This document shows, piece by piece, positions 29,142 through 35,333 of a stretch of 43,669 nt of DNA (position 1 is the first letter of the stretch; the number at the start of each line of letters is the position of its first letter). Below the pieces are notes generated by a model. The model saw only the letters and a list, made by a program, of their open reading frames with translations. It had not been told where the DNA came from and made no database searches. This stretch comes from Ferrovibrio sp. (GTDB lineage: Bacteria > Pseudomonadota > Alphaproteobacteria > Ferrovibrionales > Ferrovibrionaceae), in the NCBI RefSeq assembly GCF_029255545.1, contig NZ_JANLJJ010000022.1, forward strand, positions 32,129 through 75,797, written 5' to 3'. The translations under genes were made by a program, and so were the position numbers.

Positions 29142-29235
29142 GACTTTCTTGAATTCCGGCCGCTAGCCTCACACATTCACTGCAAGGATTCACACGGCCG
29201 CAGCGATCATGCCGGGCCGTGCAGCGGATGGAAAC

Positions 29236-30216
29236 ATGAGCGTCGGCGCCACCCATTCCCCCTGGCCGGATGATCTGTACGATCAGATCAAAGCGCATGG
29301 GGAATTTCTGTCCGGGAAACTGGGCAAGCTGACGCGGGGCAAGCAGCTCACCCTGGTTGGCGCCGACCTTACCGGCATCAAACTGGTCGGCATGAACCTG
29401 CAGCGCACCGTGTTCCGCAGCTGCCGCTTTTACTGCGCCGATCTGCGCAATTCTGATTTCAGCCAGGCGGTGCTCACCGGCTGCGACTTTTCCGGCGCCG
29501 ACCTCACCAATGCGCGTTTCGTATGGGCCAACCTGCGTGGCGCCGACCTGTCGCGGGCGATCCTCAAAGGAACCCGCTTCGAGAATGCCGACATGCGGCC
29601 GATGACCGATCCGCCAGTGCCGCCGCATGGCAAGGGTGGTGTGGTGTCGCTGAAGGACACGACGCTGCATAACACCAATCTGACGCAGGCCAAGCTGCTG
29701 GGCGCCTCTTTCGTGGGCGCCATTCTGGATGGCGCCATCCTCGACAATGCCGACCTGGAAGGCGCCGATTTTTCCTATTCGACGCTGAGCAAGGTGCAGT
29801 TCAGGAACGCCAAGCTGCATGATGCGAATTTCAACCTTGCCGACTTTCCGCCGGAAATGCTGCGTGAATTGCAGGGCACAGGCGCCAGGTTGCCAAAGGA
29901 AGTTGCGTCGGAAGTGATCGAACAGGTGCTGCGCGACCATCAGAGCTGGATCGAGTCTGAAGGCCAAACCGGCAGGCGGGCGATCATGTCGGGCTGGTAT
30001 CTGTCGCGGGCGCATCTGGCGCAGGCCAACCTGAATGGCGCCGATTTGCGGGCCGCCAATCTGTCGAATGCCAACCTGCATGGCGCCAAGCTGATCTGTA
30101 CGGATTTGCGCGAAGCCAATCTGATGTACAGCAATATGACCGATGCGGATTTCCGTGGCGCCCTGATCGAAGGATCGCGCGGACTTCCGGTGGTGCTGAA
30201 CGACAAGAAGAACTAG
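29236..30216 (+). CDS. Pentapeptide-repeat protein
   Basis: A 326-residue protein in which A(D/N)LxX-type units form two or three blocks of right-handed quadrilateral beta-helix. The first runs from about residue 40 to 125 (GADLTG, CADLRNSDFS, ANLRGADLS), the second from about 150 to 195, and the last from about 255 to the C-terminus (ANLNGADLRAANLSNANLHG). A helical, non-repeat segment of about 60 residues, PPEMLREL to EGQTGRRAIM, interrupts them. There is no signal peptide. Some relatives mimic DNA and bind gyrase; most have no known role. I chose the ATG at 29236, with GGATGG just before it; an ATG at 29209 is also in frame. It is convergent with the small downstream gene. Confidence 0.88.
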   Translation: MSVGATHSPWPDDLYDQIKAHGEFLSGKLGKLTRGKQLTLVGADLTGIKLVGMNLQRTVFRSCRFYCADLRNSDFSQAVLTGCDFSGADLTNARFVWANLRGADLSRAILKGTRFENADMRPMTDPPVPPHGKGGVVSLKDTTLHNTNLTQAKLLGASFVGAILDGAILDNADLEGADFSYSTLSKVQFRNAKLHDANFNLADFPPEMLRELQGTGARLPKEVASEVIEQVLRDHQSWIESEGQTGRRAIMSGWYLSRAHLAQANLNGADLRAANLSNANLHGAKLICTDLREANLMYSNMTDADFRGALIEGSRGLPVVLNDKKN

Positions 30217-30217
30217 G

Positions 30218-30436
30218 TCAGCGACGGCGTTGGGTCGGGCTGGCAGCGGGTTTGGGGCCGTTCGCGTTGAGGCCCTTCACCGCGCGCAGGATGCGTCGCC
30301 ATACCAGCGTGCCGGCGAAATCACCGCCCAGCGTCATTTCAGCCAGAACCTTGGTCGCATGGCTTTCCGCACGGCGGGGGCCATGGTCGGCGATCAGGTC
30401 GCGGGCGGCGCGCCAGATTTCGGCATCGGTGCTCAT
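30218..30436 (-). CDS. Small conserved protein, DUF6961-like
   Basis: A 72-residue basic helical protein beginning MSTDAEIWRAARDLIADHG. The pattern of an EIWRAA helix, a central helix with a GD turn and a VWRRILRAV helix resembles small alphaproteobacterial proteins of the DUF6961 type, for which no function is known to me. The C-terminal 15 residues are Pro- and Arg-rich. It ends one base after the convergent pentapeptide gene and has no recognisable ribosome site. The family call is from memory and moderate. Confidence 0.6.
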   Translation of the reverse strand: MSTDAEIWRAARDLIADHGPRRAESHATKVLAEMTLGGDFAGTLVWRRILRAVKGLNANGPKPAASPTQRRR

Positions 30437-30497: not shown

Positions 30498-31004
30498 TCA
30501 GGCCATATCCTTCACTTTGTCCACCGCGACCCGCAGGCTTTCCAGCAAATCCTTTTCCATTTTTTCGGATGGTTTATGGATGCCCTGGGCCAGAACCACG
30601 TACATGGCATCGATATGGATGCTGATCACCTCAAGCTGGGCCTCGTTCGGAATGCCGAGTTTGCCGATGAAATCTTTCAGGGATTTGGCCAACTGGCTGA
30701 GCAGGGGATAACCGAAGGTGCCGCCCATGCCTTTGATGTCGAAAGCCAGCTCGGCAATCGTTTCCATGATGAAAATGCGGGACAGCGGATCGTCTTCCGC
30801 CGCTTTCACCTGAACTCGCATTTCGCGCAGGTTATTGAGGATTTCGTTGGCAAACTCGTCGGCGGAAGCCGCGATCACGGACTCGATCTTGGCGCGCACC
30901 TCGTCGGTCAGCGTCAGGTCGAGGCCGGTGGTGAAATTCACCGCCCGCTGGCGTAAATCCTGCGGCGCCTTGATAAAGCGCGGTTTGCTGATCCCCTTGG
31001 CCAT
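30498..31004 (-). CDS. Hpt-like protein lacking the phosphorylatable histidine
   Basis: A 168-residue all-helical protein. The segment EDDPLSRIFIMETIAELAFDIKGMGGTFG looks like the histidine-phosphotransfer helix of Hpt domains, where (A)H(D/x)(I/L)KG is expected. Here the histidine position is Phe88 (codon at 30741-30743), so phosphotransfer is not possible at that site. The conserved KG and GG that follow are intact, so the fold is probably kept. It could be a non-catalytic partner that binds a receiver or kinase. The frame extends to 31127, but the ATG at 31004 (GGAG just upstream) is a better start. It has no kinase or regulator beside it. Confidence 0.7.
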   Translation of the reverse strand: MAKGISKPRFIKAPQDLRQRAVNFTTGLDLTLTDEVRAKIESVIAASADEFANEILNNLREMRVQVKAAEDDPLSRIFIMETIAELAFDIKGMGGTFGYPLLSQLAKSLKDFIGKLGIPNEAQLEVISIHIDAMYVVLAQGIHKPSEKMEKDLLESLRVAVDKVKDMA

Positions 31005-31130: not shown

Positions 31131-33146
31131 TCAGGATCCCAGAATCCGGCCGTCTTTCTTGGTAATTACGACCACCGAGGGGCGTGGCGGCATGCCGGGC
31201 TGGAAATCGGGCCAGCGGGTGGCCGGATCCTCAAAGGTCGAACCCTTGCCACTCTTGGTGAACTTCTCGCCGCCATCGGCGGCCGGGTGCTGAACGGCCA
31301 CAAACAGGGTTTTATCATCGGGCGTAAAGCAGGGGCCGCATATTTCGGCGCCCACCGGATTGCGGAAAAACTGCTTTGACAGGCCGCGATTGGGACCCTC
31401 GGTTTCCACCGCCCAGATGCCATCCGCGGTGCCACTGGCTTTCTGCCAGGCCTCGCCCTGATCGGTGCCGACCCAGAAGCGGCCCTGGCTGTCGAAGGCT
31501 GCGTTGTCGGGGCAGGCGAACCAGCCATTGGCACTGGTCTGCGTATGATATTTGCCGGCGACTTTCGGGTCGGCCGGATTGCCGGCCTGGAGCAGAATAT
31601 TCCAGGCGAAGGTGTTGGCCGTATGATCGTTATCGGGCTGGATCATTTCGATGATCTGGCCCCACTGGTTCCCGGCGCGCGGATTGGCGGCATCGACCTG
31701 TTCGGGCTTGCGGCGGCTGTTGTTGGTCATGATCGCATAGACCTTGCCATTCACCGGATTGACCTCGATCTCCTCCGGCCGATCCATCTTGGTGGCACCA
31801 AGCAGATCGGCAGCGCGACGGGCCTCGATCAACACGTCGGCCTGGCTGCTGAAGCCATTGGCCGGGGTGAGCGGGCCCTGGCCATAAACCAGCGGCAGCC
31901 ACTCGCCACGACCATTGGCGTCGTATCTGGCGACAAACAGCGTACCGTCATCGAGCAGGTTCATGTTGGCCTGGCGATTGCCCGGGTTATAGCGGCCGCG
32001 CGTGATGAACTTGTATACGTATTCAAAACGCTCATCGTCGCCGGAATAAACCGCCACCCGACCATCCTTGTTCACCACGACCGTGGCGCCTTCATGTTTG
32101 GTGCGACCCAGCGCTGTGCGCTTCTTCGGGGTGGATTTCGGGTCATATGGGTCGATCTCCACGACCCAGCCATAGCGGTTGGCTTCGTTCGGTTCCTTGG
32201 TGACATCGAAACGGTCATGGAACTTCGCCCAGGCATACCAGTTGCCGGGGACGCCATAACGTTTGTGATTTCCTTCCTCGGGATGTCCGGCTTCCAGCTT
32301 GCCGCCGAAATAGCCATGGAAATTCTCCTCACCGCTGAGCATTGTGCCCCAGGGCGTGACGCCGCCGGCACAATTGTTCAGGGTGCCGATCACGTGCCGA
32401 CCGCTGGGGTCTGTCTTGGTTTTGACCCGGGCATGCCCAGCAACCGGGCCGCTCAGTTCGCAGAGTGAGGCCAGGCCATCGACGCGGCGGCCAAACAGGC
32501 TGCCGCTGACCAGCGACCATTTGCCATCTGCGTTCTTTTGTATCTCGACAACCGACATGCCATGGGCAGCCATTTCGATATCGACCAGATTCTGGGTCAT
32601 ATCGCGGAACAGAACTTCCTTGCTGTCCTGTCGCGCCATGCCCGGGAACATCAATTCCTCGTTCGTGTACTCATGATTTATGACGAGCATGCCACGGTTG
32701 GGGTTGCCGCTGCCCAGCGGCAGGGGCATGTAGGCGATGTAATCGTTGTTGTAGCCGAACTGCTTCTGCTGTGCGGCGGCTGTTTGCCGGTGGGGATCGA
32801 AAGGCGGTGCATCAGGCGTGACCGGATCGCCCCAGCGGATCAGTACATCAGCATCATAACCTTCCGCGATATGGTGGGTGCGGTCGACGCCATGAGGCAC
32901 TTCCTTGAAATTGAAGCTGTGGCGGGTGCCGTTGGCCTGGGCGTCTGCCTTGCCAATCGGCAATCCGGCGCTCAGGGCGATGCCAGCGGCACTGCCGGCC
33001 AGCAGGCCTTTCAGGACGTCGCGGCGGCCGTAGCGCTGCTGTACCACGTCGCCGATAGCCGGGTTGACGCTATGGTTAATGCCAACATTCTGGGAGTCTT
33101 CATAGGCTTCGCTCCGGCTGCGGCCGTCGAAGGTAGGGCGGGTCAT
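31131..33146 (-). CDS. phoX: PhoX-family (DUF839) alkaline phosphatase, Tat-exported
   Basis: A 671-residue protein of the PhoX family, which removes phosphate from organic phosphomonoesters using calcium and iron. Residues 40-70 hold a twin-arginine signal (GRRDVLKGLLAGSAAGIALS) set behind a polar leader, as in other PhoX proteins. The core includes NCAGGVTPWGTMLSGEENF at about residue 258; its cysteine is an iron ligand in the characterised enzyme. Other DUF839 marks are VVEIDPYDP, HEGATVVVNKDGRVAVYSGD and FACPDNAAFD. The ATG at 33146 has AGGAGA six bases upstream. It is divergent from MCP 3 across about 276 bases. Confidence 0.9.
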   Translation of the reverse strand: MTRPTFDGRSRSEAYEDSQNVGINHSVNPAIGDVVQQRYGRRDVLKGLLAGSAAGIALSAGLPIGKADAQANGTRHSFNFKEVPHGVDRTHHIAEGYDADVLIRWGDPVTPDAPPFDPHRQTAAAQQKQFGYNNDYIAYMPLPLGSGNPNRGMLVINHEYTNEELMFPGMARQDSKEVLFRDMTQNLVDIEMAAHGMSVVEIQKNADGKWSLVSGSLFGRRVDGLASLCELSGPVAGHARVKTKTDPSGRHVIGTLNNCAGGVTPWGTMLSGEENFHGYFGGKLEAGHPEEGNHKRYGVPGNWYAWAKFHDRFDVTKEPNEANRYGWVVEIDPYDPKSTPKKRTALGRTKHEGATVVVNKDGRVAVYSGDDERFEYVYKFITRGRYNPGNRQANMNLLDDGTLFVARYDANGRGEWLPLVYGQGPLTPANGFSSQADVLIEARRAADLLGATKMDRPEEIEVNPVNGKVYAIMTNNSRRKPEQVDAANPRAGNQWGQIIEMIQPDNDHTANTFAWNILLQAGNPADPKVAGKYHTQTSANGWFACPDNAAFDSQGRFWVGTDQGEAWQKASGTADGIWAVETEGPNRGLSKQFFRNPVGAEICGPCFTPDDKTLFVAVQHPAADGGEKFTKSGKGSTFEDPATRWPDFQPGMPPRPSVVVITKKDGRILGS

Positions 33147-33221: not shown

Positions 33222-33264
33222 AAATTTCTCAACTTGTGGTGCATTTTACGGGGGTGCCTTCGAC

Positions 33265-33291
33265 TAAAGTCGGGTGTAATCATTCGGATAC
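33265..33291 (+). promoter_or_regulatory. Candidate sigma-28 (FliA) promoter for MCP 3
   Basis: TAAAGTCG at 33265-33272, eleven bases, then TCGGATAC at 33284-33291. The sigma-28 consensus is TAAAGTTT-N11-GCCGATAA; the -35 matches six of eight, the -10 five of eight, and the spacing is exact. It lies about 130 bases before the MCP 3 ATG, and chemoreceptor genes are typical sigma-28 targets. No comparable match was found ahead of MCP 1 or MCP 2. Confidence 0.45.
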
Positions 33292-33422
33292 CCCCCGGGC
33301 GTTCACTTCCACAAGTACCCCCGGTTTGCGCTAATCTTCACGAGGCGCGGCATGATCGAAAAGACGACAAAACAAATCGCGCAGAACATGGATGGGGTGA
33401 AGCAGCCCATCGGGGAGGAAGT

Positions 33423-35333
33423 ATGCGGGTTCTGACCAATCTGCCACTGGGGCTGCGGCTGGGATTGGCGATGTTGGCGTTGCTCGTCGCTGCTGCCGGG
33501 TGGATGTGGAGCGCCGGCCAGGCCGGGACGCAGTATGCGGTGGCGGCAGGCATTCTGGCCCTCGTGATCGGCACCATTTTTATCGCTTCGCTCACGGCCG
33601 GCCAATCGCGCCTTCACGCGGCGTTGCAGGACTGGCCGAAATCGGCTCCGGTCGGTGAGGGGGCCGAACCCCTGCAGCGGCTGGCCCGGCTCTGGCGTGA
33701 AGGAGAAGCGCGCCAGCAGGCCCTGCAGGGCCGCATCGATGAACTCGAGGCTGAACTTGTACGGATCCGTCAGGCCGATACGGCTGTGCTCGACGAAATG
33801 GCGGAGCTCTGCCGTTCGATTGGGGGTGGCGTGCTGCACCAGCGGGTTTCCGATCATGATGGCGAGGAAGCCGCCCACCGGTTGGCTGAGCGTTTCAACC
33901 ACATGGCGGAAACGCTGGATTCGGTGGTTGGCGACCTGAAGGCCCTGTTCGGCCGTATGGCCGAGGGCGATTTGTCGGATGGCATTCCCAATCATCGCGG
34001 CGGTGACTTCGCCGTTATGCGTGAAGGCGTGGTGCAGGCGATTGATCGGCTGGGCAATGTGATCGGCACCATCGTGCAGGCGGCCAACACCATTTCTGCC
34101 GCCACGGTGCAACTGACCCGTGAAGCGAAGGGGCTGGCAGAGAGTGCCGAGGCGCAATCCACCAGTCTTGACCGCACGGCTGCCGACGCCGCGTCGCTGA
34201 GCGAGGCGGCGCGGGCCAATGAGGCCGCAGCCAAACGCGCCAACCAGCGGGCCGGAGAGGCGAGGGCGGCGGCCCAGAATGGTGTCCAGGTGGTGCGCCG
34301 TTCGATTGATGCGATGAATGAAATGGCCGATATGTCGCACCGCATCTCGGAGATCACCTCGCTGATCAACGAGATTGCCTTCCAGACCAATCTTCTGGCC
34401 CTGAACGCGTCGGTCGAGGCCGCGCGCGCTGGCGAAGCCGGCAAGGGTTTTGCCGTGGTGGCGCAGGAAGTGCGCGCCCTGGCGCAACGCTCTGCCAACG
34501 CCTCAAAAGATATTGGCGCCATCATCAAGCAATCCGACGACAAGGTGAAATCCGGCGTCACCCTGGTCAGTGAAACCGGAACGGTGCTGAACCGCATCGT
34601 CGAGGCGATTGATTCGATGGGCCAGCAACTCGGCGAGATCGAGCATGCGAGCACCGACCAGTCGAGCCGCGTGAACGGCGTGACCCATGCGATCACGGAC
34701 ATGAACGCGGCGACGCGCGGTTACCTGTCCGTGGTGCAACGGACCGGCGCTGCGATTCAGGATATCGACCAGCAGGTCGCCAACCTCGCCACCCAGATCG
34801 GGTTCGTCACGACTACGGCGGACCGGCCATTCCTGGTCGCGGCCAAGCAGGCTGCCGCCGAGATCAGTGGCCTGTTTGAAGAGGCGATCCGGCGCGGCGA
34901 GATGAGCATGGAAGATTTCTTTGACGAGAATTATGCCCCGATCAAAGGAACCAATCCGCAGCAGTTCATGACCCGCTTCGTCAAGTTCACGGATGCTCAC
35001 CTGCCGAAAATTCAGGAGCCGTTGCTGGAATCGAACTCGTCGATTGCCTTCTGCGCCGCCATCGACCGCAACGGCTTCCTGCCGACGCATAACCTGAAAT
35101 ACTCTCAGCCTCAGGGCAAGGATCCGGTCTGGAACGCGGCTAATTCACGCAACCGCCGCATGTTCAACGACCCGGTTGGCCTGGCCTGCGGCCGGAATGA
35201 AAAGTCGTATCTGCTGCAATGCTATCGCCGGGATATGGGCGGCGGCGTTTACGTGCTGATGAAGGATATGTCCGCGCCGGTGATTATCCAGGGCCGGCAC
35301 TGGGGCGGCTTCCGCATCGGCTATAAGATCTGA
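33423..35333 (+). CDS. Methyl-accepting chemotaxis protein 3 with C-terminal cytoplasmic sensor
   Basis: A 636-residue receptor. Two membrane helices at about residues 10-30 and 37-57 are joined by only a few residues, so there is no periplasmic sensing domain. A coiled coil and HAMP-like segment follow, then the signalling domain with hairpin tip [21 protein letters not shown] near 313. After it, residues about 470-636 form an extra domain ending [19 protein letters not shown], which resembles PAS/Cache-like domains placed at the C-terminus of some MCPs. That domain has three cysteines (about 544, 589, 600), candidates for redox or metal sensing. The ATG at 33423 has GGGGAGG at 33412-33418. 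The longer reading from 33234 is unlikely. Confidence 0.93.

Follow-up and report, generated by a model that had tools for sequence, protein, structure and literature searches.

A clade of pseudo-Hpt proteins in Alphaproteobacteria and its candidate pairing with glutamate-type Cle-like receivers

The 43,669-nt stretch of DNA from Ferrovibrio sp. that was analysed here as a whole, referred to as the window, carries an open reading frame at positions 30498-31004 (the window gene) whose product is, by its sequence, a pseudo-Hpt: a homologue of Hpt and CheA P1 domains that keeps the lysine, the glycine and the GTFGYPLL stretch around a site held by a hydrophobic residue. The protein belongs to a clade that is nested in an alphaproteobacterial Hpt family, the other members of which mostly keep the histidine. 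Clade members are often encoded next to CheY-like receivers in which glutamate stands for the phospho-aspartate, and the two kinds of protein may form signalling pairs that work free of phosphorylation.

The window protein, its orthologues and its gene neighbourhood

The phosphorylated histidine of Hpt domains lies in the motif A-H-x-[LIM]-K-G, where it directly follows a small residue and is itself followed by xxKG. The pattern of histidine and xxKG is present in the 92 His-type representatives of the family analysed below, with arginine in place of the lysine in about half of them. In the window protein the site reads ELAFDIKGMGGTFGYPLL, with Phe88 immediately after Ala87 in the slot of the phospho-histidine. 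An earlier note made from the DNA letters had recognised this replacement and placed it in the right slot, its spacing of "two residues after an alanine" being off by one. With a hydrophobic residue in that slot, phosphate relay through the site is impossible.

An orthologue with phenylalanine at the site and without inner stops was found in all ten Ferrovibrio genomes searched (that of the window and nine others), and comparison with three of the orthologues over 159 codons gave 42-52 synonymous and 41-42 non-synonymous codon differences. As phenylalanine is kept in 10/10 orthologues by way of two synonymous codons, TTC and TTT, it reflects neither a sequencing error nor decay; the possibility raised in the earlier note, that homologues carry histidine and this copy an error of sequencing, is thereby ruled out. 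The genome of the window encodes six members of the family, with F (the window protein), F, L, L, W and H at the site, and a scan of genome contigs with a single protein returned three loci.

The window gene is flanked by phoX and by an ORF of 72 aa, with two chemoreceptor genes near it (Table 1); phoX is probably outside the mechanism in which the pseudo-Hpt takes part. A profile search of the whole window found no receiver, and no Cle receiver was found at the fetched loci of the window-gene orthologues, although at one of them (L117) the opposite strand encodes an Asp receiver that lacks the tail. A pentapeptide-repeat protein is encoded at 29209-30216 beside the window gene, and a similar-looking repeat-rich ORF, judged by eye, stands beside a pseudo-Hpt of the Trp type (L121, 2878-4206). 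One genome has a pair of pseudo-Hpt genes from the window subclade, separated by 1.4 kb and with no adjoining receiver (L123, 4995-5648 and 7046-7669, minus strand).

Table 1. Features of the window gene and its neighbours, in coordinates of the window
Feature	Position	Strand	Basis
Pseudo-Hpt gene, 168 aa (MAKGISKPRF...KVKDMA)	30498..31004	-	ATG at 31004, stop ends at 30498; ORF, Hpt homology, predicted fold, orthologues in 10/10 Ferrovibrio genomes
Phe88 codon, in the place of the phospho-His	30741..30743	-	Alignment with His-bearing relatives; TTC in 8/10, TTT in 2/10 orthologues
Signature AFDIKGMGGTFGYPLL, residues 87-102	30699..30746	-	Column counts: Lys91 and Gly94 in 41/41 clade representatives
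Conserved N-terminal tail, residues 10-27 (L17, A21, V22, N23, G27)	30924..30977	-	Column counts; low-confidence part of the model
His130, further conserved histidine of the family	30615..30617	-	Column counts: 30/41 pseudo, 90/92 His-type representatives
Small ORF, 72 aa (neighbour), directly downstream of the pseudo-Hpt gene	30218..30436	-	Beside the orthologue in 8/9 other Ferrovibrio genomes
PhoX-type alkaline phosphatase gene (neighbour), upstream	31131..33146	-	Pfam PhoX, 567 bits; beside the orthologue in 8/9 other Ferrovibrio genomes
Methyl-accepting chemotaxis protein gene (neighbour)	33234..35333	+	Pfam MCPsignal; same locus in 9/9 other Ferrovibrio genomes

Hpt homology and the pseudo-Hpt clade

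Taken alone, the window protein matches the Pfam Hpt family (PF01627) at E 0.0015 with 19.2 bits, which is below the curated cutoff of 24.6, while the His-bearing paralogue of the same genome reaches 27.8 bits and lies above it; two other paralogues of the window genome (one of the Leu type and that of the Trp type) have no Pfam Hpt match at E 1. At E 0.01 such a match was obtained for 22/41 clade representatives and for 41/46 His-type representatives, the latter being every second one of the 92, which also made up the alignment for the His-type profile. Searched against solved structures, the clade profile finds CheA P1 at E 4.5e-5 and the His-type profile (46/92 representatives) at E 8.9e-9. 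The top structure match of both profiles, ahead of CheA P1, is the repeat protein BRIC1, whose alignment has a KGxxGTFGF stretch in common. Compared with each other, the clade and His-type profiles match with a probability of 100 and an E-value of 1.5e-40. Judged by these profile comparisons the homology to Hpt goes beyond chance, and the assignment to Hpt made in the earlier note is thus clear for the window protein.

Structure prediction was one of the checks proposed in the same note. The AlphaFold2 (AF2) model of the window protein, built with 4 close sequences, has a mean pLDDT of 72, with blocks between residues 51 and 140 at 80-93 and residues 1-29 below 50. In the VIA comparison with the predicted fold CheA P1 domains lead the list (Z 14.6-14.2), which agrees with an Hpt fold, but these values are not decisive, as Z comes to 13.2 for designed bundles and can by chance be about 14 for helical models of unrelated proteins. 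Foldseek returned no match for the predicted model at E 0.001 or better. With Foldseek too weak and VIA not decisive, the claim of Hpt homology rests on the sequence profiles.

Loci were collected from 385 genomes that the search tool drew from the class; a family match at E 1e-5 is present in 130 of them, and the loci taken from this sample are part of the matches listed. Seven of 201 ORFs were set aside as CheA P1, leaving 194 family members. Rows shorter than 95 aa were removed (191 left), as were those more than 90% identical (158 left), and a quick tree was built with the histidine column taken out of the alignment. In this tree 41 of the 158 representatives form one branch with an SH-aLRT value of 99 (quick tree), while the deep branches are poorly supported. 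The site residue in the 41 representatives is Leu in 19, Phe in 15, Tyr in 4, Val in 2 and Ile in 1, and none has histidine (0/41); on account of Phe88 and of this absence of histidine from all 41, the window protein is classed here among the pseudo-Hpts rather than the active Hpts. Proteins of the Trp type (5 rows) fall elsewhere on the tree.

Column counts reveal that the clade is under constraint of its own. Its representatives conserve Arg63 (38/41), Tyr135 (36/41) and Glu150 (38/41), which the His-type proteins do not, and the fifth position after the histidine is Gln in 73/92 His-type representatives as against Met or Leu in 34/41 of the clade. The N-terminal tail is likewise conserved (L17 40/40, A21 39/40, V22 37/40, N23 36/40, G27 40/40) despite the low confidence of the model in this part, as would be expected of a peptide that may serve in binding.

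Receivers linked to the clade

Neighbours were counted within 150 bases when centred on the Hpt genes and within 200 bases when centred on the receivers. Across the whole family of 194 members, a receiver gene lies directly upstream on the same strand in 104 cases and downstream in 6, is fused in 21, and is not so placed in 63. Within the clade, 31 of 59 members have a same-strand gene for a tailed CheY-like receiver within 150 bases (29 upstream, 2 downstream), and all 31 of these receivers carry glutamate for the phospho-aspartate together with an arginine-motif tail. The 28 unlinked clade members include 23 Ferrovibrio paralogues, amongst them the window gene; outside Ferrovibrio the link is present in 13 of 18 members, and the start of 3 of the remaining 5 coincides with the end of a contig. 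The tails end in [YF]FGPDRRR...GPxRR, which corresponds to the tandem [Y/F]XGP[D/E][R/K]R motif of the Caulobacter Cle proteins, where it binds c-di-GMP (PMC5677366). For a receiver to count as tailed, a single occurrence of a somewhat relaxed form of this motif was enough, and many of the tails listed carry two. Two receivers of the window genome match Pfam Response_reg with 70 and 75 bits.

The receiver-centred count, restricted to receivers that have both the tail motif and a residue at the Asp column, comprises 182 distinct tailed receivers, 42 of them of the Glu type. None of the 42 adjoins a His-Hpt. Thirty have as their neighbour a pseudo-Hpt whose site residue is F, L, I or Y, one is fused to an Arg-type Hpt, nine stand in loci with a Trp-type Hpt, a CheA and an Asp-type CheY-like receiver (9/9), and two are at contig ends; in the window genome the distance between Glu receiver and Trp-type Hpt is 2.8 kb. 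The Glu receivers keep the T/S and K positions in 42/42 and the acidic DD pair in 41/42. Columns specific to the Glu receiver clade include L20 (28/30) and D27 (30/30), which by CheY numbering we take to lie in alpha1. The neighbour of the 115 Asp receivers is a His-Hpt in 73 cases and a non-His Hpt in 30, the other 12 having none; of the 30 non-His proteins 9 have Met, 2 Lys and 1 Ala, these being remote sequences of uncertain alignment. Fourteen of 15 Asn receivers adjoin a His-Hpt.

Loss of the two sites is thus not generally coupled, given the non-His proteins beside 30/115 Asp receivers and the histidine beside 14/15 Asn receivers, and since the histidine is also missing beside Asp receivers, the claim is limited to Glu receivers never occurring with an adjacent His-Hpt in the sample. 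For a tree of the receivers, 152 of the 182 were kept after the same filtering and the Asp column was removed. This quick tree needs three origins of glutamate, two of which are forced by its starred branches, and each origin is accompanied by a non-His Hpt, be it as a neighbour, as part of a fusion or elsewhere in the locus. When change from Asp to Glu was set against loss of the histidine in a sign test controlled for the tree, there were 2 independent pairs on starred branches and the outcome was not significant, for which reason the coupling is given as counts. As read from these sequences, the coupling of Glu receivers with non-His Hpts is suggestive and rests on few evolutionary events.

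Several further arrangements were seen at the collected loci. A divergent Hpt-like group (L253, L254, L266, L286, L293, L294) has Met at the site (e.g. PVMQLKANA), though the alignment is unsure, and Asp-type Cle receivers adjacent. The reverse case is found in Asn-type Cle receivers (SNWQM) beside Hpts that keep the histidine (L057, L059, L133, L139, L162 and others). The window genome itself encodes at least six tailed receivers, three with Glu and the others with Arg, Asp and Ala. One of those of the Glu type (L121, 1620-2171, minus strand) lies beside a cheD-like gene and has the tail MDEDAVQSLLSEL, alike in 9/9 such receivers, which resembles the CheY-bound FliM peptide (LSQxEIDxLL). At the same locus the Trp-type pseudo-Hpt of the window genome (4938-5498, plus strand) is upstream of STAS-, CheY-, CheA- and CheW-like genes, as judged by eye for L121 only; a Glu-type Cle receiver, a CheY-like receiver and a CheA motif are found in 9/9 of the Trp-type loci. 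In the window genome a single His-type Hpt of the family was found (L122, 4893-5396); it faces, from the other strand, a tailed receiver whose Asp site holds Arg, and seven loci have this layout (L122, L098, L099, L102, L103, L107, L108). A receiver-like ORF of the window genome with an arginine motif has a further C-terminal region (L218, 964-1959, minus strand).

A model of phosphorylation-free pairing and its alternatives

We propose that clade members and Glu-type receivers form phosphorylation-free pairs of pseudo-receiver and pseudo-Hpt and that the window copy acts in trans on one of the Cle-type receivers of its genome, a reading to which we assign about an even chance. From the published Cle proteins (PMC5677366) we infer that the linked receivers would bind c-di-GMP and act on the flagellar switch; by this analogy they probably respond to c-di-GMP. 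The pseudo-Hpt would dock on the Glu-locked receiver the way an Hpt docks on a receiver, and its hydrophobic side chain would pack close to the inactivated site of the receiver. Binding of c-di-GMP to the receiver tail would gate the complex, with help from the conserved N-terminal peptide, and the complex would decide whether the receiver acts on the flagellar motor or on another target. As the window contains no receiver, the window protein must either act in trans or do something else; in trans it could be an extra partner of a Cle-type receiver or a competitor of the linked pseudo-Hpts. The idea in the earlier note that the protein could bind a receiver and relay no phosphate gains indirect support from the pseudo-receivers linked to its relatives, and least so for the unlinked window copy itself. 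The E70A variant of CleD is functional in Caulobacter (PMC5677366), which speaks against a strict need for the glutamate.

A wider version of this model, which we put forward tentatively and would not ourselves bet on, is that a cassette of c-di-GMP receiver and Hpt was turned from phosphotransfer to ligand-gated binding: glutamate would lock the receiver on, the hydrophobic residue would replace the contact of the phospho-histidine, the pseudo-Hpt would be the missing regulator of the pseudo-receiver, and free copies such as that of the window would wire several receivers together.

As an alternative, the pseudo-Hpt could be a dominant-negative competitor that keeps true Hpts out by occupying hybrid kinases or receivers of the ordinary Asp type, in the manner proposed for plant AHP6. 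Such a role would suit the unlinked position of the window copy, the presence in its genome of a His-type Hpt of the family (L006) alongside Asp receivers (L208; CheY-like in L121), and the retained KG signature. We nevertheless consider it unlikely, as the linked clade members (31/59) all stand beside Glu receivers that have no Asp acceptor, and the strong retention of clade-specific residues is what would be expected of a dedicated partner.

Reuse of the Hpt fold for a job unrelated to receivers, for instance together with the chemoreceptor or another protein encoded nearby, would agree with the synteny with phoX, the MCP gene and the small ORF that is kept in Ferrovibrio and with the lack of linkage of the window subclade to Cle receivers. 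The receiver linkage in other lineages of the same clade argues against it and makes it improbable in our view; PhoX, which is normally exported, would be an unlikely partner for that reason.

Cryptic phosphotransfer through another residue, with His130 as the obvious candidate given its conservation in both groups, is quite improbable: the residue is Gln or Asn in 11/41 clade representatives, the linked receivers lack the Asp acceptor, and since it is kept in the His-type proteins as well, it is more likely structural. That the window gene is a decaying Hpt gene with its function lost, to which the absence of the catalytic residue and the Pfam score under the cutoff might point, is hardly credible and is refuted by conservation, namely ten of ten genomes without inner stops, phenylalanine upheld through synonymous codons, and strongly conserved columns.

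The pairing of pseudo-Hpt and Glu receiver can be set beside several known systems. Plant pseudo-HPts such as AHP6 have an Hpt fold without the phospho-histidine, as is predicted here; they differ in being plant proteins with Asn at the site that act on active receivers within a phosphorelay. The pseudo-HPt literature among the matches listed is on plants only. To Hpt domains (PF01627), and CheA P1 in particular, the clade is alike in its profile similarity, its KG signature and a predicted helical bundle for which P1 domains head the VIA list, whereas it differs in lacking the phospho-histidine and in having the conserved N-terminal tail and the clade-specific residues. HmrX of Caulobacter crescentus (CCNA_01278), a P1-like putative Hpt linked to motility and holdfast (PMC11481889), is likewise a single-domain alphaproteobacterial protein, but its candidate histidine (H81) is kept, unlike in the pseudo-Hpt clade; this comparison draws on its published description. 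The Caulobacter Cle proteins match the linked partner in combining a receiver with a tandem arginine motif, in the phosphorylation-independent function of CleA and CleD, and in having a glutamate, E70, at the residue of CleD that was mutated as a test (PMC5677366). In the main text of that paper, as available to us, the words "Hpt" and "phosphotransferase" have 0 occurrences, and no pairing with Hpt or pseudo-Hpt genes is described there. The exact string FGPDRR gave 0 matches in the open-access literature, the Cle paper writing the motif in its general form.

A 2025 review that covers bacterial pseudo-receivers, in the text available, gives glutamate, the residue found in the linked receivers, as the most frequent replacement at the Asp site of bacterial pseudo-receivers, puts the share of Hpt domains without the histidine at 0.9% (90 of 10,312), and calls the way in which bacterial pseudo-receivers are switched a mystery (PMC12632262). 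The same text names no pseudo-Hpt family and no pair of pseudo-receiver and pseudo-Hpt, and it mentions CleD and Nesper 0 times. Among the matches listed from the open-access literature, as far as their titles and the starts of their abstracts go, there is neither a pair of Cle protein and Hpt nor a bacterial pseudo-Hpt family.

Taken with its Glu-type, Cle-like pseudo-receivers, the clade offers a concrete and testable partner and mechanism for the switching of pseudo-receivers. Such a pairing would provide the flagellar motor's c-di-GMP effectors with a helper protein absent from the Cle paper in its available text, and would give the rare Hpt domains without histidine a function; the hints are of a signalling pair that kept its fit and gave up the phosphate.
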